The position numbers and the translations under genes are program-made. Under the pieces are notes generated by a model. It searched no databases. It was not told the origin of the DNA and was given only the letters and a program-made list of their open reading frames with translations. DNA of 64,000 nt. It comes from Thysanoteuthis rhombus. Taxonomy: Eukaryota; Mollusca; Cephalopoda; Oegopsida; Thysanoteuthidae. The DNA is taken from positions 39,340,825 through 39,404,824 of the forward strand of contig OY735215.1 of the NCBI GenBank assembly GCA_963457665.1, in the 5' to 3' direction. Shown piece by piece: positions 4,015 to 51,879 of the stretch. Every line of letters begins with the position of its first letter. The first letter of the stretch is position 1.

Positions 4015-7000
4015 ATGACCGTGGAAGATTTGAATAAGAGAAGATATCGATTGGCTAGGGAGAAGGTGGTCAGACAAAGAGCCCTAGAAACAGGAGATCA
4101 ACGGACAACAAGAATTGATTCAAACTTTTTTACATAGACCACTGCAAATCGCGAAACAGACAAATCAGCCGTTAGGTGCACAGAAAGTACATATCATCAA
4201 ACTGCAGAGAAAAGACGACAATTAACATGGGGACAAGTCAATAGCAGACAAATTAAGAACTGATGGAAGATGAAAGCAAGAAACTCAAAAAGGAAAAACA
4301 GCAGGGCTCGAACCTCAGATATGAAGAATTAGTCAAAGACAACAGAAAAAAAAAAACACAAGAAGAAATTAAAGCCAGGCTCAAAGTGGAGAGAAAACGA
4401 ATATTTGAACAATTGTTAAATAAAAGTCAAGAGGAAACCAATTGAAGGAAGTTAGTTGCAAAAGATTAATATTGTGCTTTTATTGTAGCGGAAAGTAAAG
4501 TCTATCTTATTTGCACAAGACGAAGAAACCTAGCTCTCATTCAGGATAGAAAGAAATGCCATATTCAAAAATGATATATAACACGACACCTTTTCTGAAG
4601 GAGGTTTATTGCGTCGTTCTCATGGGACTACGGATATTGTTTACCAATTTTGCAATGTCAAACATTTTTCACCCGGGCTTCCATCAGATAGTGAATTGAA
4701 TAAGTGTTGTCATGAAGAGCAGGCAAATACTGTATGACCAAAGAGATCCACCGGTGTATCTTCGCGATTAGATTGGTAATCCAAGGAATCACAATAATAA
4801 ACATTTCAAAGACAATATTAAGCCTTACAATTCTAGTCTATCCTTTGCATCGATTGGAGCACAAATATCGGATGCTCCCAGTAGTGAGCCGTACTGTTTT
4901 TGCGTCCACAGTGAAATATATGATCGCAATTTGCATCCCACGGAAGGACGTACTAAACAATATTCTCAGCTTTACCTAACTCACTCTAAAATGGCCGCAC
5001 TTACTAGAATCACATTAATGACATAGACATCCCAGGAATTACCTAATATTTAGATAATGTTATAAGACTGATGATGTTTATGCTTCCATGTGTAAAATAT
5101 GGAAAGAAGTTGAAAGAGACGAAATTTAACTAGCGGAAAAACCAATTATTCCAACCCCTATTGTAACCTGGTATTCAAGAGAAATAAACAGCAAAATCGT
5201 TATAATCTATCTACTGTGAATGGAATGGCAATGATTTTCAGAAATAATTACGGAAAAACCGCCTTTTGAACGAGATCTTTGTGTCAAGAAATCCCTCTCG
5301 TGAATTTGAACAATTAAGAATTAGGAATCATGACATACACATTATTCCAGCCATATGAAGAACCAGGATAACAATCAGGATTTAAAATCAATTGCAAACT
5401 GCTTAGTATCAATAGACACACCAAAATTAGCATACTGTAATTATCTCAGCAATGGGTTATCTTTTTTATCCTTAGTTAAATGATTAAAATCATTTTAGGT
5501 ATCAAAAAACGATGTCTCAAAATTGATCAGTATCAGAAACTTTCTGATTATTAAACTGAAGTCAGTAGTGATGCAGAAACACCATTTCAAGGCTTTCCTG
5601 GGATCATGAAAGAGAGGTACCACGCTGCTAGGGCTATGGCTATGGTAGAAATTTTCGGAAAGCCAGATTTATCTATGAATAAGACGTACGATCCTTCCTG
5701 AAGTGAGATTAGGGATAACCTCTATCAAGGACAGTATTCAGACAGACCACGTATCGTGGAAAGAGTCTGTAGTATTAACCTGTATGAGTTATTGAGGGAT
5801 ATCTTAAGAAATAATACATCTGGTATTCTCAGAGCATATCGTTTTTTCATCGAATTTACAAAACCAGCATTACCACGTACACATGTTCTGATCGTTTTCA
5901 ATGAAGAAAATGAATTTCATGACTCAGGTGAGTGTGGACAAAGTGGTATGTGCAGAAATACCTTAACCGAGACTTAAGATCAGTTTCAATAATTCAAGGT
6001 TCAAATCAAAGTCGATTTGACAGTCATCCCTTATACGGAAGACGGTCAAATAGGCGATCATACCATTGATAACATTCATTGTTCCACATAACACATATCT
6101 CAGCTTCAATTTTAACTGCCAAATCAATGCTGAAGTGTGTCTCTGGTCTATTCAATTGAGTATACCTACGAGTACATCTATAACGGCTGCCAGTATGTTT
6201 ATGTAGGAGTGAAGGAGAAAAAAGGATAGCAGAAGAATTAGGTATGACAAAATCTCCCACTATTCAATTGCCAGGTATGTTAGTGCAACTGAGGGGATTT
6301 TGCAACTCTTAGAAAATACCATGCATGACAAATCACATGCAATCTCTCTGACGACAACGTATTTGGAAAGAGAGCAGAATATATACTTCAGTGGACGGAA
6401 TGAGAGATGATCATAAGACACATTTTGGTCTGAAGGAATCGCACATTGAAGTGTGGTTTCCTTTGGATCGATACGAGGTTCAAGTACCAGACCTGGTCTA
6501 TTTATCTATTCCATATCATTATGTCTTTGACAAGGAGACGGCACGGCAGAAACCAAGAATTTGTAGGGTGATTAGGATTATTCCCAGGATGTATACTGTC
6601 AGTCCATCTCAGAATAATATTGCAAATATGTTAAAGGGGCAGTTCGTTCTGAGAGTCCCCTGAGAGTTGATCGAGTTGTCCATGCGAGTTTCGAATAAGC
6701 AGCCGAAAGGCAGCAATTTGGTTCGTAATGACGACAAATGAGTTAGACGCATGACGGAAGCTGTGTCAAAACAACTTCTTCACATCAGACATTTATTTGC
6801 CATGATATGCCAATTAAATTAACCTAAAATCTAGTCCAGCTCTGTGGACGGTTTCAAGAAAAGATGATAACTGATTATAGTGAAAGCAAATATGCTTTTG
6901 AGGTTGCAAGAAAAAGATGCTTTGCAGCGACTGTAAATACTTTATCGATGCATGGTTTGAAGTGTTCAGCACTGGGATTTCCCGATTTGGGAATTGTTTC

Positions 7001-13250: not shown

Positions 13251-13439
13251 GAATATCTCTTCCATCTTTAATGATATCGAAGGATAAAAAAAAATAAAGA
13301 GATCTCAATTCAATATTGAAAACATAAAGCTTCAAAACGATGATAAGTCACATAGTGAAATGCTGAGGTTTTCAGAAAATGTAAAGAGCCCGAAGAAATA
13401 AACAATAACCAAGTAGAATAAGAAAGGAAATTCAATACT

Positions 13440-13583
13440 TTAATAGTTTCCCATCAAAAAAGACAATGGTTTGAAGATTGTTTTCTCAGCATTTGTTGCG
13501 TAGATGAAATCCAAGTGACTGTAGTCCGGGATGCGAATATGTGCCATCATATTTGGCAATTCTGATATCAAATGGTCGGCGTC
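13440..13583 (-). CDS. Lipase exon 10 (catalytic His and stop, residues 361-407)
   Basis: The acceptor AATTAAAG precedes GAC at 13583; 144 nt end at TAA (13442-13440). The reading ends [18 protein letters not shown] then [15 protein letters not shown]. His383 in YSHLDF matches the EHLDF histidine of the family. The acceptor has a weak pyrimidine tract, but phase and homology fix it. A candidate variant poly(A) signal ATTAAA (minus strand) lies at 13272-13267; it is weak. Confidence 0.93.
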   Translation of the reverse strand, partial: DADHLISELPNMMAHIRIPDYSHLDFIYATNAEKTIFKPLSFLMGNY

Positions 13584-16500
13584 CTTTAATTAGAGGAGAA
13601 ACATAGATTTATAAATTGTTTATGAATAATACAGATGTATAAATATGTGTTTGTACGTCTGTATATACATGAAAAATCAAAGTACATGTGGGATTATAAA
13701 TTCTACAGAATTGAATCAAAATCACTTTGAGTATGGATAGAATAGAATATTACTTATTAGTATATTACTAGTATATGAATATTTTTCGAAAACTGATATA
13801 TGTTTCAGAGTATTGAAGATAGAATACATAAATAAATGGACATATGTCTTATATAGAAATAGAAGATATAAGTTATTTCCATTAATCAATTACTTATACT
13901 GATTTTTCCAATTACGCTCACGTTCATAATTGCAAACAAACAAAACAAGAAATTTCGAATGTCTTCATGAATGTAATATCAACCACTGAAGTTTGCATAG
14001 CAAATGACCATTAACGAAAAAATGCTTCCAACTTAAAGGTTTTTGTTATCATTTAGAACAGCAATGCTGAACGTGGCACTCAAGGAAATATTTGGGTGCG
14101 GGGGCTGCCATTCGAAATTTATGTGTGACAAGGCGAAACGGACCCAGTTGCTCGAAACTCAGAGTTATAACGAGCTAATCTGAATAATTCCTAATTACAT
14201 AATACTATTAATTTCCAATTTTACTATAGATTCTAGAGTGACATGTGCCTTTTCCTTAAACTTCCTGGGGTACAGAAGAAGTTCTCTAACACTGGTCACG
14301 ACAACAGCCGTCCTTGCCTGTGCTCCATATCACAAGTTTCTCTTTGTCTCGGACTTCTTCAAGGTTTTTGCGATATTTTGAACAAAACAAGCACCTCAAG
14401 TGATGTCACTCATTTTACCATACCCTAGTTTAACCATATATAGAGAGAGATCGGATTCAATTAACCTCACGACGGGTTAATCGCGCTGTTGATACAAAAT
14501 TTCACGCAATACAGAGTTTACATACATTTTAGTAAATACCTTGAAGTTCAAATAGCATATTCTTTCTCATCGAATTTTGTTTCCAATTAATTTGTTTCTG
14601 TTTGATTTAACATTTTTTTGGTAAATTTCTGAATTTAGCCTAATATTTATATACCTTTTCAGGATATTTGTTTGTTTTTTTTTGTAAGGGGGACATCAGA
14701 TCTTCTGAGCAGTAGAGTTTGGATAAATAGCAAAAAAGGTTAAGAAGCATTGGTTTAGAGCAACAGTATTGAAAGTGTGTTCTGTGGAACCCTAAGACCA
14801 ATTCTTTATTACATAATCAGTTTCTTTGCAGTGTTTACACGTCTTTTGTTTATTTCTTCAAGACAGACAATATTTCTGTATGTGAGAAAAATTAACAACA
14901 TTTTGCCGGTTCAATTGAAACATCTTTTTATCTCACGCTATTCTATCAGAAATCATCCATATGGCTATTTTCCCTCGGCAAGCCTCTATTTTTACTTTTC
15001 CATTCAGATTTCTATTGTCTAATTGGGTTTAAACACATTCGGATAGACAAGGGTTCCCGAATAGTTAAAGTTTAAAGACTGGTTTAGAGCATCGATCAAC
15101 CATCCGTTCTACTAGACGCATTGTAGACCAGATAAGCACCCCGACGCCAAAGAAGAGGAAAAAAAACCCAACTATTTTTACTGTTCAATTAAATTGCTTA
15201 CTGGAGTATCAGATAGAAGTGTAACTGTACCTCCACAAAAATGAGGTAAAGTAGATAATTCTTCTTGTCAGAGAGGATCCTGTGCATTTTTCTTTCCTTT
15301 TTTTAAATACTTATGAGGCCATTTCTTGAAACCTCATTTTGAGTTGTTGAAGATATCTTATTAGAAATATTCCATGAAATACAGCCTGCGTTATTTCCTT
15401 ACGTATTATAGTTCTCAACTTACTCATCTATCGAGGATTAGATACACACAGAGAGTTATTAGTAAGACCCACTTGCGACTTGCCATGCCTATGGAAGCTT
15501 CGTTCTGTTTACGGCACCTAGTATTCCACAATGGTCACCCATTAGATATTGAGCAGGCTTGACGTTCCTTGACATCGATGATCTTAAGAAAACTTGTGTA
15601 TCTAACGTGATTTGGCCATAACCCCTCTCTCGGTGAGAGGTTCCTCAATCATAGATCTATTTTCCCGTGACAGAGGTTAATAATGAGAGTTGTGGAAACT
15701 GCATATACCGTGCCAAATCAGTAATTGCTAGTTTTTGTTGAACAAGGTTGTAGCAATAATTTCAGTCATTTTCTAGCGTGTTTACTTTATCAAAGTAAAG
15801 AAACACAAAAAGAACAGCCAGTGGCCCGAAAGGATCGAAATAGTTACCTTATTTCGCGCAACCCTTTTGCAATGCTTGATATTCTTGCCGTAGAGATATT
15901 GGCTTGGTGCAAGTCCATTCCCATATACCTTCATTCAAACCACACTAAATTGAGTGGATGTACCTCTTAATTACATGAACCATTTACGTGATCGAATGCT
16001 TCTAGATGTCACTTTCGAGCAGTTTCATTTACATAACAATTGGACCACCAAACCACAAGACGATAAATTATCGCTTGTTATCGCAAATTCTCCTTTTTTC
16101 CCGTTTACATTTTTTTTTACTGATCAAGAGAATATTACCAGAAACAGATGATCTTATCTACCAGACAGTCAAAAATAAGAACAAAGCGACGAATAGTATT
16201 ACAAAAAACAAAAAACAAAAGATAATCATTGACTTTTAAAAAAAAAGAAAAGTCATGATAGCGCTTCGACAACAGATGTTCGTATTTTCATCTGTTTCAC
16301 CTCAAGACAGGATATTATCAGTATTGGTTACACTTCACGAGAAAACCCGAGTACGTCTAATATTTCTGAAGATTTCCAAGATGACACCAACGAGAGAACT
16401 TTTGCCTTTTCTTGATTTTTATGCTCTCTACCATTTCATCCTTTCATGGACTTAGTAGAGGATCACCCGAAAGATTATAGGGTGATGACAATAAATAATA

Positions 16501-16660
16501 TGGATGGTTTTCATGGGATGGTTTTGTTTGGGACGTATCCTCATTCCCAATAACTGAGACATCCCTTTCGTTACCCTGATAAAGATTTCTCTTTTCTAAG
16601 ACTGTTGCTTTACAAAAGAACATGGATCGACAGTGTAATTCTATAATTCAGAATCTATCA

Positions 16661-16697
<37 letters not shown>

Positions 16698-16907
16698 CGA
16701 GGTGTACAAGAAATGTATATATGATATATTAGCAATCAATTCTTAAATGTTTGCTTGTCTTCAGGTGAACATTAACAAAGTCAAGTCTTAGGGCAATTTC
16801 CTCTATTTACCTCATTACACTCTTATGCTGCACCTTGTTTCAATCTATCTATCTATCTATCTATCTATTTATCTAGTCTGTTCATATATATCTATCTTGT
16901 CTGTTCA

Positions 16908-16962
<55 letters not shown>

Positions 16963-17269
16963 GTGTTTGATTTTGTCACCACGCCAAAGTCTATTCATGT
17001 TTTCAACAGTTTGCCAATCAATTATTATTACTATATATTTTATTGTGGTTGTTGACTTTAATTTCAGTTTGTAAGTTACCAGAAACCTGAGGCTAGCGAG
17101 CTTTAGATGAAAAAAATTGTGGAGGACCAAGGCTTTTTTACCGCATAGAAGATACAACATTTTTAGAAACATCCCTTTACTTATACATGAAATAATATAG
17201 ATCAGGTGTAGCGCATGCACTGGCATTGACAAAAATGTGCTAATAATGTGTGCAGTAGAAATGAGAGCA

Positions 17270-17324
<55 letters not shown>

Positions 17325-17331
17325 GAATCTC

Positions 17332-17367
<36 letters not shown>

Positions 17368-20300
17368 TATTATTTTTATTTTTATTATCATTATTATTAT
17401 TATTATCATCATCATCATCTACAGGTAAGATTTCAAGATCACTTCCATGTCGATTTACCTGTTTATTCGCAATGATATCATGTCCTCCGGTGAAAATAAT
17501 AATTGGTAAGTCCATTTCAGAAAATGTAAGTTCTGGTGCCTCCTCCTAAAACGAAAAAAAAAGAAATATCATGGTATTTTCATATTCGACAAACAATAAT
17601 ATCAACTTGGACAAATGGCTCTCACAGATTGTTTTAGTATTGAGCTGTTATTATGAGAATCTATTTTTTGGCATTAAAGATTGTTACTTTTCGAGCTAGA
17701 AAAGACTCTATGAACAAGAAAGGGCAGTAACTAAAATTCAGGAATTCATTGTCCATTCAATCATAAAGATTCCTGTAACAAGTTATGAAATGAAAACAAA
17801 CCAAACTAGATCATTAGTTCCCAACCAAGAGAGCCTGCGAAAGACGTTTGGTTTAAGATGTAATCACTAGTAATGCACTAATCGAAGAACTAGTAGCAAA
17901 AAAACAAAAACAAAAAACAAACGAACAAACTAGAAATAGAGATCACATCGATGTGTATATTACTTACTATAGCAGAATTGTTATTTTGCAGTGATAAACT
18001 AAAATCTCAAATCATGTTCCGCATTATTTTCGATTGCTTTCTCTCAATACATAGCAACAGCTATACAATTAAATAATTGTACTAATTCTTACTATAAAGC
18101 TTTCTAATTATATGCAAAAAAAAAATATCTATTAGAAATTATTCTTCGCTGCAACTAACTTTAACTGACTAGTGATATCATTGACAAGAGTGGGGTATAA
18201 CTTTGACAAGCTTTGGAACCACTGATTCAAACTAACAACCGAACAGAAGAGAAGAATAAACAGCAATTCACAAGACCTGACAATGTACGAATTATAATTT
18301 TGGTATAATTGGACTTACTAATTAGATAATTCTCTTGTCTAATTAATTTAAGGCTCACATGATATCGAAAGAGTTACGCGTCAACAATAGAGCAACGAGA
18401 AGGGAGAGCATCTTGGATGGCATTGTAACAATGAGATTTGGAATCAAATCATCAAATAAGATAGAAGATTATGTCGTGTAACTTGATTGTATTTAATTTC
18501 TGTAAACTCCTCACCTTACGTGATCTTATATATCTGAAATTGGAATGCTTGTATGTAAGTCTTATACATGTATTCTCATAACCTGAGAACTACGCACCCC
18601 AGACAAAAAATAAAACGAGGACGAATTCAGCACGCATAAATTTGCGTACAGCAAATATCACAAGGTCGAATTCAGAAAAAAAAAAACAAAAACAAAAAAA
18701 ACATTTGAAATTTTCACTCTTTTAGAGTTTCCTGCGTCCGAAAAGTCTCCAGTCTACAGCTAATAGGAGAAGTCAGAGCAACGGTGAGTCATTTTAAAAA
18801 AAAGTAGGTTATGTATGTGTACCCGAGTGTGGCTGTCCAAATCTTATTCAGCCAACAGCTGTGGCTTCAGGAAAAGGAAGAAAAGGTCTTTCCGTGGGAA
18901 CAAGGTCAAAAATGTTCGAGATGGTGGATTTTCACCGATTTGCAGATTAGTATAGTTACATGTATATTTTTTCAATCCGATATTGTCACAAAGTTAAACT
19001 TACCGATCCATATATGGCTTTGTTATCTTCAGGATGGACATGGGAATATTTTCGAGTTTTGTTAGATCGCATCATCTGTGTGTTGAAAAGGGCAGTTGAA
19101 TGTTTTGTTAATTATTCATGGATATTGAATAAAAAATTTAAATTCTGCATAAAAATCAATACAATGAAAAAGACATTGAATTTTACTCACAAAGGTAAAT
19201 GTATATTCTCAGCATTAAAAAACTATTATATGACAGGACAATGCTCTAATTATATGAAAGATTACTCAATAAAAACGTGAATATTTACCTGAGCCCAGTG
19301 AACAAGGTTCTGCACTGAGGAGCCTGCTGGAGTGTGCATGAAATAAAGCCCAATGCGTGTCTACAAGAGAGAAATATTTATATAGATTTGTAATAACAAA
19401 TTTTGGCGAATCTGAATATTAATAAGAAATTTTCTTTAAAGATAACTTACATTGAAAGATTCATAAAAACAAGTTTATCATGAAGTAAACAAATCGCACT
19501 TTTGCTCTTCAATATATGATTTATATCCTGTTCATTTTGAGGCCGTTTTGTGCTTACGTACAGTTTTAAGAAGAGGTAATCCAACAAGATATTAGAGAAA
19601 GAAGGCTCTATTCTGAATATAGCTATAATGCGTAAATCTGTTCCTTATTTTCAGCCATTCGTAGTCTCGAAATATCCGGTTATTTTCCTCATGATATTGG
19701 ATGTAAAATGTTTCTCGCTAGTAGTGTTTTGTGCTTTTATTAAGAGTTTTTGGGGGGTTGGGGGCTGTCAGGGGTACGCAATTAAGAGAAAATGTTGAAT
19801 TGGTAAAGAAATAAAATTCGGAGTAAATGATGAATCGTTTGTATATTCAGTTTGCCTTGAGTTTTACCTCGAAGAAAGTAGTCACAAACTTGAATCTTAA
19901 TCAAACATTAATCTGTATTATGCTCACGGGTGCACTGGCTTAATTTCTTGATTCCTAGTTTCTGTGCGTAAAAATAACTGTTACTTTTGAAACGAACAGG
20001 ATTACCTCCCCCATGCAATTCAGTGACATATACCTTTTCAACAACCACAACAATAACTTCATTTTAACATTTCGCATACTCACCCATTAATTCTAAATAA
20101 TACCCATTGATCCTAGAAAGACCCCATCAATTCTAAAAAGATCCTGTTAATCCCCAAAAGAAGGGTATACAATCAATGCATCCTCCCAATATTCACTTAT
20201 GGATCTGGAACATGGAACATAACCAAGAGACAGGCCTGCGAATTGAGAACCATGCTGCGTGAGCATGAGAGAATTATGCTGGGCCTCACACGGAGAGACC

Positions 20301-23300
20301 ACAAGGCTGCACAATACATCTGGGAAAAGACAGGAGTCCGAGACATCATAGATTCCATTAAAAAACTCAAATGGCAATGGGATGGCCATGTCGAAAGAAT
20401 GCCCGACTCACGACGTGAATCCCCTGAGATCACATGCGTAACTGAGGCCGGCAGATTACTAGATGTAGAGACGAGCTAGACAAATTCAGTACTGGCTTCT
20501 CGACGCCAACGATAGGGAAATGTGGTGGATACAGGAGAAGGTCCTTGTCTAACGGCAGACGTTAAGAAACTGATGATGATGATGATGATGATAATACTCA
20601 CCCACTCGATGCTAAAGACAGTACACTGATGAAAGTAAAAACGATTTTATTTCCATACAAACCCTCAACGTTTTACACAATCACCCACTCGATGTGAAAA
20701 AAACCCCGAACAAACAAACAAAAACAAGGCGCGAATAAAAACAATTTAACAATCTAATTCATTCAAAGCAATAACAATAAAAAATTTTTTTTCTTACTTC
20801 TGCACCGAACTTGATCCGTACTTAAAATGGCTTGGCAACCATTGTTCCATAGTGAAGATAAAATATTTACTAGGCAAGCCTAGTTTGACATAAGATCACC
20901 AGCATTGAGCACCAAGAAGAGGAGTAGCAGGGGAGAAAGAGAGGGTAAGGGAGAGGAGACGATGTGCATTTAACTTTCATTTATTAGCGTTGCTCATCAT
21001 CTGAACTGAGAAACTTTTCAAGTGTCCTTACGCTGGTCACGACAACAGCCGTTCTTGCCAAGGTTATACTTATCACAAGTTTCCCACCGTCTCAGAGTTT
21101 CTCAAATTTTTGCATCATGTGAACATAGGCTTATCGATGACAAACACCAAAAGTGGCGTCACTCACTTCATCATATACTATTTTGGCCATAGCTGGAGAG
21201 AGAAGTCGAATTTATGACTTTCCCATGGGCATCAGTGCGATTCTCAGTCCCGGTGTCAGAAGATAGCATTTCAATCATTTCAAATATAACGTTAGTAACG
21301 ATTGCAGCCCTGAGAAAGTTATCAAATCAAAGGGAAGTAATTTGGGCTTCATAAGGTATAATTGACGAATTTACAAGAAGTGCCTTACTTCGTCAAAACT
21401 TGGGCTCAATTTACCACCGAGTGCTTCTCCAAGTTTAACACAAACCCCACGTGTTAATCCGTTGTTGCAGGTTGCTCTAATGGTCAGATCCCTCTTCCAG
21501 TCAGGTCCATAAAATGATTTGTGACCGTACAATACGTAGAGCGACTGGAAAAAAATCATAGCAACAGATATATTAATTGGGCTTAGCTTTGTTCGAAAAA
21601 GACAAATAGGCAGTAGTGAGGAGGAGAACATGAAGATTACTTAGAGGCAATGTATGTATGTATTCAAATAGATACGAATTGGTCAGTGAATTTTGCAAAT
21701 GACATATTCAATTATCAAGAGGAACAGCTGAACCGAAATCGTCACCAAAACTGTAAGAATAGGTTTTTCTTAGTTTTTAAGTTGGTGTGGCTGCCCATGT
21801 ATGGATGTACGAATGCTTCACCGATGGAATTAGGGGCCGAAAATTTGTACATTTTCTCCTTATTATATCAAGAAAAAAACTTTTTTTTTCATACATCCCC
21901 CACCCTTATTTATCTTTTTAGGGTGGGGGTTTAGCTTTCAATGTTAGTTTATGCTGATTTGACCCCTCTATTTTAGCCGACCCCTTTTTTCAAATTTTTT
22001 TTTAATAATAGCTGCTCAAACTAAAGACAATATAATTAATTGATCAATCCCTTTCCCAATGTTTTAATTGATCACCAACAACACAGCATGCCCACAAAAT
22101 AAGTTGATTACTTGACAGTTTCTTTTGGGTAACTAACCAGATCTTTTTTTTGTCCAAAATTCTATGGGGGTCAAAGTGAATTTGGCAAGTTGACATTCAT
22201 GGCTCCTACCACGACGAACGAACATCTAAACGACAATATGTTGGTGAGGGTTGCGTCAAACTGACATCATCATCATTGCTGTTACTATTCAATGATTCTT
22301 TCAATCTAACATCAGCATCTTTGTTGTTAATATTCAATAATTCTTTTAAATTATAATCTCCATATAATCGTTTTCATTTGATAATTCTTTCAAATTATTA
22401 TCGTCATATTTCAAAGACGAAATAGTTGATTTACAAAGGTTTTAAATAGGAAAATAGATATTTATTTTGCAATATATATATATATATACTATTCTGCTAT
22501 TTAGATGTTCAGATATAGTGGTGATATGAGGATAATAGAACCTGGATATAGAAAAAGCACTAATGAAAGGACCAAGAAATTATTGAGTTACCTCATCACT
22601 CATAGATGCATACATCGTGAGCTTTGATTGTACATTAGCAGCGTAACCAACTGGACCGAGAGCTGCGAAAACCCCAATCTGAAATATAAAAAGATCGAGA
22701 ATATCTTGTATATTTAAAAGAAAACGCGAATGATTTCAGTAAAATTGGTGTTTTTCACAACTTCTATTATCTTAGTCTCAGTTTGATAAATTTTACCTTT
22801 TTAGCGAGAGTTTTATTTTCAGAAAATGCTTCTAAACCGATTGTTACTCCCTGTGAGTGTCCAATATAGTTGAGTGTTTTTTGATTTGTCTTTTGCAGAA
22901 TATATTCGATAGTGGCTGGCAAATCGTACCTAGCCATTTCGTCAAAGCTGAAAGCAGAGAAAGAGAAAATTGTACGTTATTCGACTGATCCAAATGTTAA
23001 CAAGAATCTTGTATTGAATTCGTATTAAAGAGCAGGTTGATGTTATTGTATACAAACATAAATTAAAAAAACAAAAAAGCAAACTAATATTTAAGTGTCC
23101 CTGTAATACACATTTCAAAAGTATGGATTTTCTTTCATTTATTCAAGGTGAGTCTTTTCTTCCCACGATTTATTCTGGTTTACTTGAGGCCGTCGGATCA
23201 AAGATGGGTGAAAGCTAATTGAGACAGTTTAGTTGTATCAATTCAAAATAGGACGTTAAGCAGTGGAAAAGATATCAACAAACGTATAGTTTAAAATTGG

Positions 23301-24220
23301 TTCCAAAACTTCTAGAACGGAGACGAGAGCCTTAAGTATGTGGACAACCTTGGAGGCCATTATCAAAGCAAAGCGACACAAAAACATCCTGAGAAGTCAC
23401 AGAGGAAGTAAACGTTGACCATTCAACAGTTGTTAAACATTCACATCAAATTGTAAAAGAAAAAAAAATAGCTTGCAGGTCACACAACTGACACTGCAGA
23501 AATTTAACAAACTTGGCTAGATCACACAACTTACTCACCAGACATCTCCCGAACCGACTATCATTGTTTCAAATAATTTGATCACTTCCTGTAAAGGAAA
23601 GTCTTGAACAACCAGACAGCAGTTCAAAGCACCCTCAAAAATTTCATTGGTTCCAGGACCCCATAATTCTATGCTTCTGGGATAAATGGGCGTTTTTCTA
23701 ATTGGCAAAAATGTGTAGATTCTGAAGGTTCTTATTTCAGTTGATAACTTTTATTCTAAGCTGCGATATAGTGCTTTATAATTGATGGTGAAAAATAGCA
23801 ATTACTTTTGCAGTAACTCACTGATTTTTTTAGTCATAAATCTCCAGTCCATTATTCTGAATTCTCGACTAGCTTTTTTTTACATCATAATTTCAGTTGC
23901 TTTTTATCCGTACTCAAAGATCATCATTCTTCGCCCGTAAGCAAGCAGTGCAAATCAGAAATAAAGAATAAATCCTCTCGAGCGGGCAAGATCAGCAGGC
24001 CAATTGCTGCGAATAGTCAAAGTTCACTTAAATTTAAGATACAAAACCAGATTTGTCGAGTATCATCGTGAGGGACAGGTTATGGGCTCAATATAATGGA
24101 CAATGAACGATCAATACTTGATATTAAATTATGTTCCAGCATCATAAGAGACTAATCTTTGTGAATTTTAGTTTTTAATAGACTGACACAGATAAATCCA
24201 GTGTTTACAGAAATATATAC

Positions 24221-24289
<69 letters not shown>

Positions 24290-25296
24290 CACACACACAT
24301 AGACATACATATATTTACCTATATATATATATATATGTATATAAATATACATATGTGTGTGTGAGTGTGTGCATATGTGTAAACTTAGTCGCTTTTTGGA
24401 CATAAGCAAGAGACCTGACGGTAAACAGAGGGCAAAATACTACTGTCAGAGTCCCAATGGCTCAATCAATTAGCGCAGACGTAGGCTACATAGGTGCTCC
24501 CATGATAATTAATGTGGGTTCAAATCCCACCCAGTGCTAATTTCGTTATTTTCCAATCATCACTTATATTTGGCTCACAACTGTAAATAATCCAGTTCGC
24601 GCTAAATTAAGTTCCTAAAACTGCGTTTATCTATTCACATTGCCAGATACTAATATCCATTACAAATCATGCTGCTGACAATGATGTATATATGTTGAAA
24701 TACGTAAATACCTGAAGACCTGAGATTAACACAAAACAGCAAAAACCAGATTGCGATCGAAGAAGAGGTAAGGGCGTTATTAGGATCTCTGTCTACCGTT
24801 AAAGTCCTAAGCTTAATCGGTTAGCGCAGACCTTGGCTATATAGAAGCTCCCATGGTAATGGATATGGGTCATATTTTCATCCAGGGCTTATTTCTTCGT
24901 TCACTACCGTTAATGATGTGGTGCAAGGAAAATTTAGTTCCTAAGACTGTTTCTTTATTCACATTATCGGATATCAATATCCACCATATGTCACGCACAC
25001 ACACACACACACACACAAACGCACATACAAACGCACATACACACACACACTACACACACACACACACACTACACACACACACACATATATATAATACAAG
25101 TTAGGAATGCAGTATAATATAATACAATATACAATGTATGATGGGTTTATTTCATGAATTGTGCGATGCATTCAACATTAAACATTAAGTTTACTCATAG
25201 CTGAGCTTAAAATATATATTTACCGGGAGAAACTTTAACTGTGCAGAAACATAAACGTGTTTATGCAGCGAATCCTCAGCCCATTACACAAACACT

Positions 25297-25328
<32 letters not shown>

Positions 25329-27348
25329 TATATATAGTAAAATATTAGATTCGCTACGCAATTATTTTTCTGCATTCTAAAGTCTTCTTCAGGCAATGAT
25401 TATTTATTCTGATCCTTATTTTAGACGTCATTGAGACGGTGATCTATTTCCACTGGGTGGATATCCTTCGTCGTATTATATTTATATTTACTTTTCCTTT
25501 TTTGTCTTTTCTCGTTTATTTGTTCATTTCTGCTTTTATTTAATCTTCTATAGGGGAAGTGGATTCCTGGCTAGTTGTTTTAAATCATTTCGAATGTTTC
25601 AGGCACGTTTTTTTCTTACCAGTGTGTTGTCCATCCATCAGCTTTTTGTGGTTTGTTTTGTCTTAGGAAGTAATTCTTTTTACTTCTATCTACCCCCACA
25701 GCGTTAGGATTCACCTTTACATGACCTTTTTTGTTTATGTTAAATTCTCTTAATGTTCTTGGCGGTTTTGTATCTATATAATCACGAGAAGATGATTACA
25801 TTATGCTTAGGCTGGGGTATAATAGTACTAGTTATAATGTTATAGTACAACTGCTACTACTATCACTACTGGTAATAACGAGAAGAACAAGATAGCTATG
25901 ATAGTTGATTTTTGTACACCTGCATACTTGGTGTTAAATTGAGTTTTTTGATAGAAATTTGGAGCGGTGCTGACATTTTGAAGCTACTTCATTTTCTTCA
26001 TTTAGTAAGTCTCATTTTCATTTAGCAGAAGTAGCCTAGGTTTCCATGCTCTGCCATACGTGTGTTTGTTATAATATTTTCCATTTCAATACTGGTGTGA
26101 GACTGCTGTTTTCTAGGCCCCAGTGGTCTGTGAATGTGATATATTGTTTTTGTATTTATCGTTTGTGAAGGATACTGTACTGTTGGCTAATCTTAATCTA
26201 AAGGGTATGTTTGATATTCCTATACAATATTATCTCCTGAGGGGTTTGATGTTGGAATGCTTTACGGCTGAGACTGAGTTAGTTCGTTGGAAAATACCAG
26301 ATGAGAACCATGCAACATGCACATGAAAGAATTACGCCCAACTCCACATGGAGAGATCATGATACGGCACAATATATTATGGGAAAAAAAAACAAGTGTC
26401 TGAGACATCATGGAATCCATAAGAAAATTCAAATGGCAATGGGCAGGACATTTTGCAAGGATGTCAGACAACCATATGGCATCCCGTGAGATGATATGCG
26501 AAAACGTAGCCTATAGGGAATAAGATGGTGTGACTAGCAAGAATAATTCAGAAAGTAATGGTTCCATGATACTCATGATAGAAAGGTCTAGCAAATCTTG
26601 AGGAGGGTTTATGTCCAACGACAGACGCTATAAGGCTGCTGCTGATGATGTTGATGATGAAACACAGACCTCATACACATTTCAGATTTCCGTCTTGGGA
26701 AATTCTACCTGAAAAGTTGTGCTGCAGGTAAATTGAAACATTCTGGTTTCGAATGTACCCTCGTGACGCATAGTTGTCGTCTTGTAAGAGTTTTAACACG
26801 TACACATACATTCTTTATTACTTTAAAAAGTCTGATACCGAGATAAATGCAGTATGTATGATAAATTGTTGGTGACTCTTTTGTAGCCTTTTTGATAATT
26901 CACTTGATGTTACTGACCTGAATCTCCAAAATTCTTCATCATCACTTGTGTAGGTATTGTGTTTCAAGGAGTAGGTGTTTCCCCGGGCGTTGGTCAGCCA
27001 GACATCGTGGCAAGCCTCAGAGAATAGATAAGCTAAAAGTAGAAGAGATTCGTTATCATACAGGGTCAACACATTTTAATAACTTCTATCTGTAAAGAGC
27101 ACCGTGGAGCAAGATATTTTTACTTTAACTATAATTTCGTTCATCGATAAATCTGTAAATAATATTGATTATTAATGATGATATCGCTAGCATAGTGCAC
27201 GTAGAAAATGACAGGATTATTTACGTATGACAGAAATAGAAGTACAAGGACAAGTCTTTTCTCCAATACGTAATTTGGAGAATGATTTGATTTGAAACCT
27301 TTTGGACCTATTTAAAAAAAAAGGGTGTGCATCTGTTTGCTCACGTTC

Positions 27349-27397
<49 letters not shown>

Positions 27398-30300
27398 TGT
27401 GTGTATTAATGTGTCTGTTGAGGGCATTATGTTCAGAACCCATATGCTGAATTCTGAGTAATAGATACAAAGGCGAGTTTATGGGTGAGCTATTGTGTTT
27501 CGGGTTGAACTTCGTAAACATCTACACTCAGAATCAACCAAAGAAAGGGCCTGCTTCTAGAATATTTGATGCCTCAGGTAAGCTCACCTTGGAGGCTGCC
27601 TTTTAACCTAACCAAGAGGCAAGCTGAAAAGCATGCAACGAGCACACAAGAGAATCATGCTCAACCTCACATGGAGAGATTACAAGACAACACAGTATAT
27701 AAGGAAGCAAACGGGAGTCAGAGACATCATAGAATGTATTAGAAGACTTAAATGGGAATGGGCAGGCTATGTTGCAAGAATGACGGACAACTGATGGACA
27801 TCACGACTCACAACATGGATCCCCAGAGATCACATGCGAAATCAAGGCCGACAAAATACAAGATGGAGCGATGAACTGGACAAATTAAGAAAGTACTGGC
27901 TCCGTGACGCCCATATTAGAGAATTGTGGCGAATCCTGGGGAAAGTCTATGTCCATCAACGGACGTTAAAAGACTAACGATGATGATTCCTTAAAAATCT
28001 TTTTCGACTAATTTTTCTATTATCGGCTTTTTTCATCTGCTTGATTTATTCGTTCTCCCATTTTTACCGGAAAGTCCAAAACACTTCGTGACATTTAAAC
28101 ATTGTCTACCTCTCATTTCTAGAAAAAAATCTTTCAAAAAATTCCCATCCCGCTCCAGGGGGGTGGATTCACATGCTGGCCAAATTGGTTTCTTAAATTA
28201 TATCTGGCAGCGTTCACACTTCTTTTTATTTGGAAAACGCTGGCTTTTTAGAGGCTGAATTAAAAGCGCTAGAAGTGAGCCATTTATTGATCACTATACT
28301 TTAAAGGGTGATAAAGTTTAGCTTATCCAAAGGCGTTAGGAACCCTATGGCTGGTTCCGATAGTGGCGACCATTTCGCAGACACATAGAGATAACTAAAC
28401 GATATCATTCATAGAGAGGTTGCTTACAAAGAGATTCCTTTGGGCCGTTGATGAGGAAGTTGGTTGATGACCCCAGAAAACCATGGGCAAATAAAACAAC
28501 CTTATCAATAGTATCACAATGTTTATTTTGCGTAACAGGCAATCGGTGCAAAGTCAGGATGTAACCATCTTCAGTTTCCACTTCGTGTTCTTCGCATTTA
28601 TAGCCTCTGGCCGCTGCCAATTCACACTGAAAAATACAAAAGCCAATCATTAGGACATGTCAATAAAGCTTCTTTGCAAATGCATTATAGGTAATCCTGG
28701 CTTTGGCGATTCTAAAACATGGCGGCATAACTGACTAAAAAGACAAAAATTGGCCAGATTTTCAATGTATCTAAATTGTGTCACGAAGCACGTCGGTACT
28801 CTCACTGAGAAGTAAACAAATTTCACGTCAAATTCCAAGCTGAAACTTTTTGAAATGGAAGAATTTAAAAAAAAAATAGCTATGATTTAATCGGAAGTAT
28901 CTTTAATTTGATCAAAGCATGGATAACATGGTTGTACGTGACATTTTTCAAGATGTGAAGTTAATGTGAAGACAATCAAATATGAATCTCACACATATTG
29001 ATTACTTGTTTTCAGAGTTACTTTTATCTGTTATACGTATTCATGATAAATACATGCAGATATTAGCATAATATCGCACAAGATGATATTGCAGAGCACC
29101 CAGATATGATCAAATATTGCTAGCAGCAGTTTTATTCTTTCTACATTGGTCTGTTTAGATCTATTCATCTATGAATCATTGGGGCCAACATACCCAAAAT
29201 ATCTATATATAAAACTTGAGAAACCTTTTTGCTCCAATTTTCTTATCTTGGTCTACTTCGTGGCTGTCATGCAAGTTGAGCAAATAAACAAATAACGATC
29301 ACTGAACTGTAGTTCCAGGTGCAATTCGTTACTCAATCGTTCTGAGAATGTTCTCTTTCCAATAGAAATTGTAACGGGCGATGAAAAGTGGATGCTTAAG
29401 TTAACAAGAAAGTGAAATACAAAAGATCGTGTGGAAAACTGAATCGATCACCCAGTAACCGTACTAAAGGCTGATCCTCATTCAAAGTAAGCGATGCTGA
29501 TATTTGAGCATGTTTGATATCACCTGCGTCGTATAGTTTAATACATTATTTTCTCGTAATCTCTTGATTTGCTTTCAATCGGAACTGGTCTACTCAACCG
29601 GGGAAAGTCGTTTAATCTTTTTTTTGTGCGTGTATATTCGGGAATTATCAAGATTTGTTTTGTATTATGTTTGGGTCGCATTTTATCTTACTGAAAATGA
29701 AAAGACGCATAGTGATCAGAAAATGTTGCTTATTTTTTCCATCTCCAATGCTAAAATAAGTGAACAAAAATACGCCGATTTTGACAAGATTATTTCTTAG
29801 AAGAAATGCACGTTAATATGACAGCTGTCAGAATACAATCAAAAACAACATCTTTTGAATGATATCCGTTGAAAGTAAACGCCTCCAATGCCATCAAACG
29901 ACAAAATAACAGAAGGAATGTTTTAGGTAAGACAGCGATGACCATCTTACAGCTGATGTGAAAATGCAAAGGACCAGGTCCTGGACCAGAAAAAGAGAAC
30001 ATGTCTGATAATAGACGTGGCTGTGCCTATAGATCACATAGTTAATACGGAAGAGGGTGAAAATCTTGGGAAATACCTGACAAGGGGACTGAAGAAAGTG
30101 TTGAACATGAAAGTCAGGAACTCAGAATCGTACCAAAGACATTGAAAACAAGACAGCACTAATACTGAAGAGAGTACTTGAAATATGGCACCTACTCCCC
30201 CAGCTGTTAGCAGTGTCCTAACAACTAAGGAAAAAGCATCGTGGGGAAGGTACAAACCGCATGTGGAAGGCTGGAGACCCGTCGAGACTTACCGTCACTC

Positions 30301-30410
30301 AGCCTTCAGAGATAAGCACAAGGCAACGGGTGTGAAACTGTGAATCACATCGCTGCTATGAACTATATGAAATGACGGACTGACCAGCAGACAACTGGTG
30401 TGGACATGTA

Positions 30411-30473
<63 letters not shown>

Positions 30474-30712
30474 AAGATTAGAAAAGAAAAAAGGCAAGCA
30501 GAATGAGAAAGAAGACTTTTGTCGATGGAAAAAGTCATTAATCGACTTGGGATATATATCATGAATTTTTGGGACGACGTTTATACGATTTGTCTTTCAG
30601 AGAAAGATACTTAACGACCAGGGCAGTGCTTTAAAGGAAATTCAGTAAAACACACACACACACACACACGCACACATTGAAGCTAGGCACACAGACATAC
30701 TCAGACACACAG

Positions 30713-30807
<95 letters not shown>

Positions 30808-30995
30808 CAGATCACCAGTTGAGACTCGATATCTGATAAATCCAAGCTACTCACAGCCTTCATTGTCATTTCTGGATCACCAAAGTATTCACTATTGTCA
30901 CCTGACATACCAGCACTGACGCCTCCGTGTAGGAAGACACACAGACACAAGCTGATGGTAGATAGGAGGCTACGAAACAAGTACATAGATGCCAT
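13440..30995 (-). CDS. Secreted/lysosomal acid lipase (AB-hydrolase lipase family), 10 exons, complete
   Basis: Exons on the minus strand are 30995-30855, 28626-28428, 27032-26918, 22947-22797, 22678-22592, 21544-21389, 19360-19289, 19075-19004, 17545-17459 and 13583-13440. They sum to 1224 nt, i.e. 407 residues plus TAA, close to the roughly 400 residues usual for lysosomal acid and gastric lipases. Every junction is GT-AG and phases match. Seen: a hydrophobic N-terminus (about 1-28, likely signal peptide), VETEDGYIL (63-71), AHGFLGSS oxyanion loop (94-101), [31 protein letters not shown] with Ser183, [24 protein letters not shown] with Asp354 and YSHLDF with His383. Asn-Lys-Thr sequons lie at 196 and 312. 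Family knowledge: these enzymes hydrolyse cholesteryl esters or triacylglycerols in lysosomes or gut lumen. Which substrate applies cannot be told from sequence. No stop, frameshift or lost catalytic residue is seen, so the gene looks functional. Confidence 0.93.
14235..14450 (+). repeat. Interspersed repeat family C, copy 1
   Basis: Shares with 21015-21240 the block CTGGTCACGACAACAGCCGT, then ATCACAAGTTTC, GTCTC, a GCACC...AAGTG(A/G)(T/C)GTCACTCA stretch and a CCATA...GAGAGA end. Lies in lipase intron 9. No coding capacity recognised. Confidence 0.7.
14690..15110. repeat. Possible hAT-like terminal remnants
   Basis: AAAAAAGGTTAAGAAGCATT at about 14733, followed by TTTAGAGCA, resembles decayed GGTTGAGAACCACTG-type hAT ends; a second TTTAAAGACTGGTTTAGAGCA lies at about 15070. 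The similarity is short. Confidence 0.3.
16655..16962. repeat. Two (TCTA)n tetranucleotide arrays
   Basis: Arrays at 16655-16697 and 16842-16962 are separated by about 145 bases in lipase intron 9. The second has TCTGTTCATATCTATCT interruptions that are themselves duplicated, a sign of tandem expansion. The Tyr-Leu-Ser-Ile open frame is an artefact. Confidence 0.95.
17271..17420. repeat. (ATT)n/(CAT)n trinucleotide array beside lipase exon 9
   Basis: Two ATT arrays separated by GAATCTCT end in a CATCATCAT run at 17404-17419. On the minus strand the array starts about 40 bases inside intron 9. Confidence 0.97.
17459..17545 (-). CDS. Lipase exon 9 (catalytic Asp, residues 332-360)
   Basis: The acceptor CGTTTTAG and donor GTAAAT bound 87 nt. 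It encodes [17 protein letters not shown] then [12 protein letters not shown]. Asp354 in GGHD is the expected acid of the triad. The exact acceptor could shift by one codon because GAG is repeated there. The intron beyond the donor runs within about 40 bases into a (CAT)n/(ATT)n tract. Confidence 0.93.
19004..19075 (-). CDS. Lipase exon 8 (residues 308-331)
   Basis: This 72-nt exon lies between CAACACACAG and a consensus donor GTAAGT, phase 0 at both ends. It encodes [13 protein letters not shown] then [11 protein letters not shown]. It fills the gap between the HW-Q block and the strand before the catalytic acid, where related lipases have a K-x-F-DYG-x-N-x-xIYG pattern. The FDYG part is poorly conserved here, so support comes from splice sites, phase, spacing and the N-K-A-I-Y-G end. 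Confidence 0.82.
19289..19360 (-). CDS. Lipase exon 7 (residues 284-307)
   Basis: The acceptor CTTGTAG and donor GTAAAT bound 72 nt. The reading [18 protein letters not shown] then LVHWAQ matches the family block with HSPAGTSVQNMLHW almost residue for residue. Phase 0 on both sides. Confidence 0.95.
20080..20165. repeat. Short minisatellite, unit about 20-22 bp
   Basis: Four to five diverged units of the form (A/C)CCCAT(T/C)AATTCTAAA-AGA follow each other. Related ACTCACCCACTCGATG... units recur at 20597 and 20682, beyond the RTE fragment, as if the LINE end had landed inside the array. Confidence 0.55.
20158..20598 (+). mobile_element. RTE-type LINE 3' end, 5'-truncated
   Basis: Encodes [54 protein letters not shown] and [16 protein letters not shown], the post-RT C-terminal domain typical of RTE/BovB-clade LINEs, then ADVKK and a (GAT)n tail. 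It sits in lipase intron 6, antisense to the gene. A frame break after about 20479 disables it. Confidence 0.85.
21015..21290 (+). repeat. Interspersed repeat family C, copy 2
   Basis: Partner of 14235-14450 in the same orientation; in lipase intron 6. Ends near the exon 6 flank. Confidence 0.7.
21389..21544 (-). CDS. Lipase exon 6 (lid/cap region, residues 232-283)
   Basis: The acceptor TTTTTTCCAG and donor GTAAGG bound 156 nt (52 codons). The product [20 protein letters not shown] onwards carries two cysteines, at CNNG and VCVK, in the cap region, where acid lipases have conserved cysteines. Cap sequence is less conserved than the core, as expected. Confidence 0.9.
21715..22140 (+). repeat. 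Interspersed repeat family A, copy 2
   Basis: Starts with GAACCGAAATCGTCACCAAA-like sequence, then GGTGTGGCTGCCCATG, CTTATTATATCAAG, GGGTGGGGGTTTA and two TTGATCA blocks. Same block order as 34680-35100 and 62710-63420. It lies in lipase intron 5. Confidence 0.75.
22260..22490. repeat. Short internal repeats and (TA)n
   Basis: The text (T)TCAATGATTCTTTCAA / TTCAATAATTCTTTTAA / TTTGATAATTCTTTCAA recurs three times at about 60-bp spacing (22290-22400), followed by a TA run at 22473-22488. Intron 5 of the lipase. Confidence 0.5.
22592..22678 (-). CDS. Lipase exon 5 (residues 203-231)
   Basis: The acceptor ATATTTCAG and donor GTAACT bound 87 nt (29 codons). The reading [20 protein letters not shown] corresponds to the FFALGPVA segment after the nucleophile elbow in the family. 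Intron 4 between this exon and exon 4 is only 118 bases, the shortest in the gene. Confidence 0.93.
22797..22947 (-). CDS. Lipase exon 4 (nucleophile elbow, residues 152-202)
   Basis: The acceptor TGCTTTCAG begins an exon of 151 nt that ends at donor GTAAAA. It completes Ser152 and reads [17 protein letters not shown], then [11 protein letters not shown]. The G-H-S-Q-G motif places the catalytic serine at residue 183. An Asn-Lys-Thr glycosylation sequon follows at 196. The exon ends in phase 0. Confidence 0.95.
24205..24375. repeat. Compound (TA)n/(CA)n/(TG)n microsatellite
   Basis: TA runs, a CA run at 24286-24298, further TA and TG runs in lipase intron 3. The open frame across it is an artefact. 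Confidence 0.95.
24440..24700 (+). mobile_element. tRNA-derived SINE, copy 1
   Basis: AGTCCCAATGGCTCAATC then AATTAGCGCAG gives a pol III A box, and GTGGGTTCAAATCCCACC gives a perfect B box with paired flanks. A shared 3' body (TTCGTTA, AGTTCCTAA, TATTCACATT, ATATCCA) is also present at 24795-24990. The tRNA-like head lacks a full cloverleaf and is followed by non-tRNA sequence, so it is a SINE and not a tRNA gene. Confidence 0.75.
24795..24990 (+). mobile_element. tRNA-derived SINE, copy 2
   Basis: AAGTCCTAAGCTTAATCGGT then TAGCGCAG repeats the head of copy 1 about 340 bases away, in the same orientation. The B box is degenerate (ATGGGTCATATTTTCATCC). The 3' body matches copy 1 through TATCAATATCCA and runs into a (CA)n tract. 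Confidence 0.7.
24995..25100. repeat. (CA)n microsatellite
   Basis: CA runs with AAACGCACATA and TACAC interruptions, directly after the second SINE. Confidence 0.95.
25288..25400. repeat. (CA)n(TA)n array joined to a foldback-family fragment
   Basis: A CA run (25288-25324) and short TA run are followed by TTAGATTCGCTACGCAA, TTTTTCTGC and TCTTCTTCAGGC, a half-copy of the element at 2101-2208. Confidence 0.65.
26285..26662 (+). mobile_element. RTE-type LINE 3' end
   Basis: Encodes [27 protein letters not shown], a frameshift, then [20 protein letters not shown] (shifted [15 protein letters not shown]), ending GCTGATGATGTTGATGATG. In lipase intron 3, antisense to the gene. Confidence 0.8.
26918..27032 (-). 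CDS. Lipase exon 3 (residues 114-152)
   Basis: The acceptor ACTTTTAG is followed by an exon of 115 nt ending at donor GTCAGT. Joined to exon 2 it restores Ser114 and reads [19 protein letters not shown], then [20 protein letters not shown]. This matches the DVWMGNSRGNTWSRKH block typical of acid lipases. It enters in phase 1 and leaves in phase 2. Confidence 0.92.
27350..27405. repeat. (GT)n microsatellite
   Basis: About 45 bases of uninterrupted GT and then a GTACGTGTGTGT end, in lipase intron 2. Confidence 0.96.
27600..27988 (+). mobile_element. RTE-type LINE 3' end, best-preserved short copy
   Basis: Encodes [60 protein letters not shown] and [18 protein letters not shown], with one break at the [10 protein letters not shown] point. 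This is the C-terminal tail of RTE-clade reverse transcriptases. It ends CAACGGACGTTAAAAGACTAACGATGATG. In lipase intron 2. Confidence 0.88.
28428..28626 (-). CDS. Lipase exon 2 (oxyanion loop, residues 48-114)
   Basis: The acceptor TTTTTCAG precedes TGT at 28626 and the donor GTAAGC follows 28428; length 199 nt, leaving phase 1. It encodes the [16 protein letters not shown] strand and [13 protein letters not shown]. The HG dipeptide (residues 95-96) forms the oxyanion hole in this family. The upstream flank also reads open in this frame for a few codons, but the acceptor and the family alignment place the exon edge here. Confidence 0.92.
29790..30485 (+). mobile_element. LINE 3' end of a different clade, with (AAT)n(AAG)n tail
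   Basis: Reads [20 protein letters not shown], then [20 protein letters not shown] and, in another frame, [11 protein letters not shown]. These match the C-terminal LIDVAVP...KY.DL....WN.K and LGTAHILRKVL blocks of a group of metazoan non-LTR elements. An AAT array (30412-30444) and AAG array (30445-30479) form the tail. It lies in lipase intron 1, antisense. Confidence 0.75.
30650..30805. repeat. Compound (CA)n(TA)n microsatellite beside lipase exon 1
   Basis: CA runs at 30651-30674 and 30713-30755, then TA to 30804. On the minus strand it begins about 50 bases after the exon 1 donor. Confidence 0.97.
30855..30995 (-). CDS. Lipase exon 1 (signal peptide, residues 1-47)
   Basis: It starts at the ATG at 30995 and runs 47 codons in phase 0 to the donor GTGAGT (30854-30849). 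Residues from about 8 to 28 are hydrophobic and end in a GGVSA-like signal-peptidase site, so the product should enter the secretory pathway. The tail DPEMTMKA lines up with the DPETNMN region just after the signal peptide of vertebrate lysosomal acid lipase. A compound (CA)n(TA)n microsatellite lies in the intron about 45 bases downstream of the donor. Confidence 0.9.
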
Positions 30996-31091
30996 TTCGG
31001 AAATTCCAGAGAGAATCTTCAGGCGCTCTCGTCAGCGAAGTTAGGAGATGTGCAATAGCAAAATATCTCAAAACTTCTTCAGTATTTCTCA

Positions 31092-31099
31092 TATTTATA
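31092..31099 (-). promoter_or_regulatory. TATA-like box of the lipase gene
   Basis: On the minus strand the sequence reads TATAAATA, about 97 bases upstream of the lipase ATG. A start site 25-35 bases downstream would give a 5'UTR of roughly 65-75 nt with no intervening intron needed. This is inference from motif and position only. Confidence 0.5.
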
Positions 31100-35574: not shown

Positions 35575-35870
35575 TTTCTGAACTTTAGTCCGTTGCACCA
35601 TCTTATATTTCGCTTTCGCATGTGATTTCTTTTGAATCAAAGTTGCAAGACATGATGTCCAGCAGTTGCCTGTCCTTATTGCAACATGACTAGCCCATTG
35701 CCATTGGATTTTATAATGTCTCAGACCCCTGTTTTTCCTCTAATATATTGTGCCATCCTGTGATCTCTACGTGTATTGTTATGCATGATTCTCTCTTGTG
35801 TACGATGCAGGGTTCTCAATTTGAGTGTCAATCTTCTGGTTAGGTTCCATGTTCCAGATCCTTATATCGA
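35498..35870 (-). mobile_element. RTE-type LINE 3' end with (CAT)n tail
   Basis: A CAT array (35498-35574) is the (GAT)n tail on the minus strand. Then the reverse complement encodes a degraded QRTREN, EKQGSETL, NPMAMG series that follows the DIIKSNGNGLVM pattern of other copies. The 161-codon plus-strand frame at 35776-36261 partly overlaps it antisense and is unlikely to be a gene. Confidence 0.7.
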
Positions 35871-36264
35871 AGGGATGCATTGTTTGATAACCTCTCCTTT
35901 AAAGACTAGTGTTTTTTTCCTGTTCTTGAAGGTGGAGCTTGTTTGCTCTACCGAGAGTTTGCCAAGTGATTCTCCGCTTGATTTAATCTTCTTTAGAGGA
36001 TTCCATGGTGATTCATTGTCCTCGGTAGATGTAGCTGTTGACTCTCTCTTTTTAAAAATTTTCATTGTTGTGTCATCGTCTCCAACTTTTGTTTCACTGA
36101 AGTTCATGTTTAGACTCACATTATTGTTTTTCTTCATTCAGTTTATCCATTATCATGTGGAGGTTATGGAGGTTCTTGGCACTTTAGAAGTTCAAATACA
36201 ACTAAACACGTTTCAAAGGCGTAGATGTGGGAAACGTACTCACCATACTGCACACGCATGAATC

Positions 36265-40818: not shown

Positions 40819-40863
<45 letters not shown>

Positions 40864-40868
40864 AGCCT
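40721..40868. repeat. Compound microsatellite (CA)n(TA)n(GA)n then (CAC)n(CAT)n(CAG)n
   Basis: CA and TA to about 40760, GA 40762-40802, and a CAC/CAT/CAG trinucleotide run 40813-40866 that serves as the tail side of the RTE fragment that follows. Confidence 0.95.
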
Positions 40869-41105
40869 TTCAGCGTCCGTCGTTGGACACAGACCTTCCT
40901 CATGGGAATCACGGAGCCAATATTATCTGACCTTGTCAATTTTGTCACGCCATCTTATATTCTGCCTGCCATAGTTCACATATCTCATGGGATCAACGTA
41001 GTGAGTCATGATGTACATTGGTTGTCTGACATTCTTGCAACGTGACCGACCCATTGCCATTTGGATTTTTTATGATATCCCTAACTTTAATATACTGCGC
41101 TCTTC
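40808..41105 (-). mobile_element. RTE-type LINE 3' end
   Basis: TTTCAGCGTCCGTCGTTGGA and ACAGACCTTCCTCATGGG are the reverse complement of the element's conserved 3' end; CATTGCCATTTGGATTTTTT is the reverse of the KWQW region. The tail is the trinucleotide array on its left. Confidence 0.82.
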
Positions 41106-49109: not shown

Positions 49110-49755
49110 AGTCCGCTTATCTCTTGGCTGTCAGGTAACTGCTTTCAGGACTAAATCCCAGATTCTCACAAAAGATGACAGTATTATATCTTGCTTAGAA
49201 AAGGTAGATCACTTCATCTAACTCGGACAACAAATCTCCAAAGGGCCCTCAAAAGAAGAAGAAATCAAGCAAAGAATCTCCCTAGGATGACAAGCCTTTG
49301 CCAGAGCAAGCACAAACTTCTAAAACAAAAATAACCTATCAATCCTAAAAGGAAGGATGTGCAACCAATGCATTTTCCCAAAAGTCACTTATGGAATTGA
49401 AACATGGTACCTTACCAAAAGAAATTGAGAATTGAAAACCATGCAACGTGCACATGGAAGAATTATGCTCAACCTCACATAGAGAGACCATAAGACAGCA
49501 CAATACACCCAGGAGAAGACAGGGGTCATGGACGTCATATAATCCATGAAAAATCTCAAATGGTAGAGGGCTGGCCATGTTGCAAGAATGGCAAACAACC
49601 GATGGTCATCATGACTCAAACATGGATCCCCAGATATTACATACGCAACCGTTGCCGGCAGAGAATTAGATCGAGGGACGAGCTAGATACACTCAGAAAG
49701 TACTGGCTCCGTGACCTTCAAAATAGAGAAGTGTGGCGAATCCTGGGGATGATGA
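49110..49755 (+). mobile_element. RTE-type LINE 3' end, longest copy
   Basis: Extends further 5' than the other copies: VDHFI-LGQQISKGPSKEEE, IKQRISLG, AFARASTNF, MCNQCIFPKVTYGIETWYL, then MQRAHGRIMLNLT, EKTGVMDVI and GHVARMANNRW. This is the end of the RT domain and the RTE C-terminal domain. Stops replace W codons in places (TAG for TGG), and a shift follows NRW. No GAT tail. Confidence 0.85.
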
Positions 49756-50721: not shown

Positions 50722-50780
<59 letters not shown>

Positions 50781-51115
50781 GTCTTTTAACGTCCATTGTT
50801 GGACATAGACCTTCCCTAGGAGTTGCCACACTTCTCTATCATGGGCAACGCGGAGCAAGTACTTTTTGAACTTGTCTAGTTCGTCTTTCCATCTTATTTT
50901 CTGCCAGCCTCGGTTGCGCCTATGATCTCAGGGGATCCATGTCGTGAGTCGTGATGTCAATCGGTTGTCTGCCATTCTTGCATCATGGCCAGCCCACCGC
51001 CATTTGAGATTTTTAATGGATTCTATGATGTCCCTGACTCTTGTTTTTTCTCAGATGTACTGGGCTGTCTTGTGGTCTCTCCATGTGAGGCCCAGCATTA
51101 GGCTGAATACAGACT
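50721..51115 (-). mobile_element. RTE-type LINE 3' end with long (CAT)n tail
   Basis: CAT array 50722-50780, then AGTCTTTTAACGTCCATTGT and the reverse of RWKDELDKFKKYLLRVAHDR, and so on to about 51115 (GCCTCACATGGAGAGACC on the minus strand). The upstream rest of the element is truncated. Confidence 0.88.
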
Positions 51116-51510: not shown

Positions 51511-51879
51511 TTATGGTACCAAGGTGATTAGGTGTGGTCCAACTGACTCATGGATCAAACGTTCACCACTCTTTCTTGCATATAAACACAAATGCATATT
51601 AACGCTTTCTTCTTCAGCGAACAAACTCATTAAGTCATTGGCATTCATGATTTCACTTAAACTCGACTCTTGTATATTACAGAAAGAACGAAAAGCATGT
51701 TGAGCTCGCTGTAGATCATGCCTTTGCGTCTGTGCCATTTTGCTGAATTGTTGCCCGATTTTCGCATTCAGTTTTGTGCAACCGACAAAAGCAGAAGACA
51801 ATGAAATTGTCTGCAGAACTTCATAGCTTTTAATTGCTTTGACCAGCATCAGCATCGGCGTTGTTCTGTCTTCTGGCAT
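51511..51879 (-). CDS. Unrecognised 122-codon open frame
   Basis: A single-exon frame with ATG at 51879, an in-frame TGA four codons upstream and a stop at 51511. It has mixed composition, no simple repeats and looks helical: KAIKSYEVLQTISLSSAFVG, then AKIGQQFSKMAQTQRHDLQR. No signal peptide or membrane segment. I do not recognise the family. Flank 51975-52090 recurs at 63565-63665, so the frame may belong to a repeat element. It could also be a lone exon or chance. Confidence 0.3.
   Translation of the reverse strand: MPEDRTTPMLMLVKAIKSYEVLQTISLSSAFVGCTKLNAKIGQQFSKMAQTQRHDLQRAQHAFRSFCNIQESSLSEIMNANDLMSLFAEEESVNMHLCLYARKSGERLIHESVGPHLITLVP

Follow-up and report, generated by a model that had tools for sequence, protein, structure and literature searches.

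The window, that is, the whole 64-kb stretch of DNA analysed here, carries on its minus strand a ten-exon gene extending from 30995 to 13440, whose joined exons comprise 1224 nt, or 407 codons and a stop codon. Exon 1 (30855..30995, 141 nt) encodes a hydrophobic N-terminus and has an alternative in-frame donor that would extend it to 30816. It is followed by exon 2 (28428..28626, 199 nt), the longest one, with the HGFLGSS region; exon 3 (26918..27032, 115 nt); exon 4 (22797..22947, 151 nt) with the GHSQG motif and Ser183; exon 5 (22592..22678, 87 nt); exon 6 (21389..21544, 156 nt) with Cys257 and Cys266; exon 7 (19289..19360, 72 nt); exon 8 (19004..19075, 72 nt); exon 9 (17459..17545, 87 nt) with Asp354; and exon 10 (13440..13583, 144 nt including the stop codon, whose final base is 13440) with His383. 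All nine introns have GT-AG borders, and their lengths, from the first to the ninth, are 2228, 1395, 3970, 118, 1047, 2028, 213, 1458, and 3875 bases. The window sequence thus reproduces the structure given in the preliminary description, which had listed ten exons with GT-AG borders, 407 residues, no exon above 200 nt, and introns of 118 to about 3970 bases. The coding part is flanked on the same strand by a TATAAA box at 31094..31099 (first base 31099), 104 bases upstream of the start codon, and by ATTAAA, a poly(A)-like signal, at 13267..13272, 168 bases past the stop codon.

The gene is embedded in repetitive DNA. One repeat family occurs in nine places (20135-20600, 26299-26666, 27605-27987, 35614-35893, 40830-41074, 49327-49749, 50742-51098, 55288-55678, and 62345-62550), and some of its copies overlap or adjoin TCA/CAT microsatellites. 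We take the reading frame of this family to be the terminal part of the reverse transcriptase of a LINE, the repeat then being a LINE 3' end. The gene had been described as hidden among transposon ends: three of the nine copies do lie in introns 2, 3, and 6, but two frames of the family had no Pfam match, and the LINE label is our own assumption. Tandem repeats in the window account for 60 TRF rows. In intron 9, a 5S rRNA-like sequence (15506-15623, minus strand, Rfam 45.8 bits) lies within a longer repeat, a second copy of which is found at 61839-62055 on the plus strand; this repeat is perhaps a 5S-derived SINE. ARAGORN, run on the window with the bacterial code, found no tRNA.

Reading frames of at least 40 aa that passed a complexity filter numbered 656 in the window. 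Of these, 19 that lie outside the lipase exons (9 + 10, one of them inside intron 6) were compared with Pfam, yielding one weak match, to Helitron_like_N at 5702-5974 on the plus strand (E 2.1e-5, 25.3 bits against a cut-off of 28.9). The neighboring frame at 6352-6660, also on the plus strand, had no Pfam match, although it looks Helitron-like to us. A 125-codon open frame at 51514-51888 (minus strand) has an even composition and no Pfam match. Inspection by eye of 156 frames of at least 50 aa outside the locus revealed no second functional gene. The earlier statement that no other gene in the 64 kb is clearly functional therefore holds as far as these 19 frames compared with Pfam and 156 frames viewed by eye go, which is a partial test.

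The preliminary description had assigned the gene to the acid lipase family and suggested a Pfam search with the joined protein, and the assignment is borne out by Pfam, by matches in PDB, and by the alignment of the catalytic triad. Residues 49-108 match Abhydro_lipase (PF04083; 5.7e-19, 67.9 bits, above the cut-off of 27), and residues 90-388 match Abhydrolase_1 (3.4e-16, also above the cut-off); Hydrolase_4 matches below its cut-off. Three distinct PDB sequences match at E ≤0.001, being 38-40% identical to the window lipase: human gastric lipase (8e-89), dog gastric lipase (6.9e-87), and human lysosomal acid lipase, LAL (2.9e-80). The alignment to these enzymes has a single internal gap, one residue long. 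The Ser183-Asp354-His383 triad named earlier is reproduced and aligns with S174, D345, and H374 of LAL, and GXSXG is present as GHSQG. Similarly, C257 and C266 align with C248 and C257 of LAL and putatively form the same bond. In LAL, the former three are given as active-site residues and the latter two as a disulfide (PMC3324826). The N-terminus encoded by exon 1, judged hydrophobic by eye, is a candidate signal peptide. A search of NCBIfam with the protein gave one match, to another family and far below the cut-off. Close relatives were also looked for in bacterial and archaeal genomes, where none of 13 pattern matches was confirmed. Literature searches for octopus gastric triacylglycerol lipase and for mollusc acid lipase family expansion found no papers, and the results for mollusc digestive gland lipase contained, by title, nothing on such a gene.

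We asked how far the exons stand out from the 2926 frames of the 64-kb window. With a profile made from the three vertebrate PDB sequences alone, leaving out the window protein, frames with exons 2, 3, 4, 7, and 10 were found at E values from 1.6e-24 to 1.2e-6, and exon 9 at 0.1; other frames started from 4.2, and the best reversed frame had 3.1. A four-sequence profile that included the window protein was also run, but its exon scores are circular for that very reason. In tblastn with the three vertebrate sequences used singly, the same five exons (2, 3, 4, 7, and 10) had E <0.001 and exon 9 had 0.03-0.2, while 60 shuffled queries produced one match at E ≤0.01. Exons 5-9 were compared locally with the part of the vertebrate alignment between their flanking exons, and each came out as the best match, with ranks of 1/164 for exon 5, 1/137 for exon 6, and 1/240 for exon 8. 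On the whole strand, exon 8 ranks only 7/16400, and it is the weakest exon by similarity.

The same exon carries YSHV in place of the conserved (F/Y)DWG segment. Of 210 residues that do not vary among the three vertebrate enzymes, the window lipase keeps 114 and differs at 96. In the HGLL motif the first Leu, which we presume to be an oxyanion-hole residue, is replaced by Phe. In LAL, the sequon NKT at 161-163 bears at N161 the mannose-6-phosphate glycan for lysosomal targeting (PMC3324826). The window lipase has QKT at 170-172 instead (N161 corresponding to Q170) and carries other NKT sequons at 196 and 312. Since the targeting sequon is missing, the sequence leans weakly to a secreted role, similar to that of gastric lipase. 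Human LIPA and fly LIP3 are published as 38% identical (PMC3324826), the same value as for the window lipase and LIPA, and therefore the overall distance of the window lipase is ordinary for an invertebrate gene.

All splice sites are in place, and the exons are free of frameshifts and premature stops. When neutral decay was simulated with substitutions only (2000 copies), the stop-free fraction fell from 37% at 2% divergence to 10.6% at 5% and 1.6% at 10%; the frame, splice dinucleotides, and start codon were all kept in 16.6% of copies at 2% and in 1.35% at 5%. As few copies stay stop-free at higher divergence, a long neutral phase is unlikely, while a short one is compatible with the simulation. 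This bears on the possibility that the locus is a freshly silenced or non-catalytic paralogue, with the frame still open and constraint relaxed. The loss of DWG together with the 96 changed invariant positions, the clustering of acid lipase genes in human (reported in PMC3324826), and a doubtful decayed copy of exon 7 at 710-781 all speak for it; the intact coding sequence and splice sites, and the equal distance of fly LIP3 from LIPA, speak against it, and we hold it to be improbable. The candidate exon copy (minus strand) has a tblastn E value of 0.099 and a DNA score of 49, among 1498 random chunks with a top score of 94 and the next of 45. It scores 40 versus 24-29 for reversed targets, an unrelated plus-strand stretch scoring 37, and with the vertebrate-only profile its E value of 4.2 is not significant. 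There is likewise only a slim chance that the gene is a fast-diverging paralogue from a tandem cluster of acid lipases in decay, in which case the loss of (F/Y)DWG would mark a different substrate, or lipid binding without catalysis.

Splice sites were compared with the other GT and AG dinucleotides of the gene span, donors being scored with weights from a general consensus and acceptors by pyrimidine content. Among 1022 GT sites, eight of the nine donors rank in the top 5%, the exception being that of exon 2 (percentile 82.5), and the acceptors range from percentile 80.0 to 99.7 among 891 AG sites. Use of the exon 1 donor after 30816, which would make the protein 13 residues longer (420 residues), is very unlikely: this donor has GT, keeps the frame, and outscores 93.4% of the GT sites, but the 407-residue model is preferred because the donor after 30855 scores slightly higher (95.6) and leaves no gap at that place against the three solved enzymes.

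Taken together, the locus is very probably an intact animal acid lipase gene, a relative of the human gastric and lysosomal lipases. This identification is based on an uninterrupted frame with proper splice borders, on the match to the family, on the triad and the aligned cysteine pair, and on the hydrophobic N-terminus. From the intact frame, splice sites, and triad, and from the promoter-like and poly(A)-like signals, we infer that the gene is functional. The pre-mRNA would start near the TATA box and lose nine introns by splicing, and the protein would enter the secretory pathway and adopt a lidded alpha/beta hydrolase fold. At acid pH, in either the gut lumen or the lysosome, Ser183 would then attack the ester bonds of its substrate, a triglyceride or sterol ester, with His383 and Asp354 as the relay. 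As such, the window lipase is an ordinary further member of a well-known family, and a sound case of a multi-exon gene read out of raw repeat-rich DNA.

Among the known enzymes, human gastric lipase (LIPF, PDB 1hlg) is identical to the window lipase at 143 of 360 aligned residues and dog gastric lipase (PDB 1k8q) at 140 of 366. Both have the triad, GHSQG, and the cysteine pair in common with it, and differ from it in the DWG segment, in a Cys that is replaced by Gly at window position 274, and in other invariant residues. Human LAL (LIPA, PDB 6v7n) is identical at 138 of 367 aligned residues and shares the triad and the cysteine pair; unlike LAL, the window lipase lacks, besides the sequon at the N161 position, the C-terminal Arg-Lys. 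Mapped on human LAL, the exon borders of the window gene fall at c.111, 313, 428, 579, 666, 822, 894, 966, and 1053. LIPA, we assume, is also bordered at c.111 and c.428. Its exon 8 is given as S275-Q298, and therefore c.823-894, and from the reported variant c.966+2T>G it follows that an exon ends at c.966 (both in PMC11678757). Three borders (c.822, c.894, and c.966) agree exactly, including both borders of exon 8; this exon, which is skipped in the E8SJM variant of human lipase deficiency, thus has identical borders in a distant relative, as exon 7. By contrast, the variant c.229+3A>C (reported in PMC6995538) implies that an exon of LIPA ends at c.229, where the window gene has no intron. 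Vertebrate LIPA is described as having nine coding exons, the first one matching the signal peptide (PMC3324826), versus ten in the window gene. Drosophila LIP3, compared here through that source's published figure of 38% alone, is similarly distant from human LIPA.
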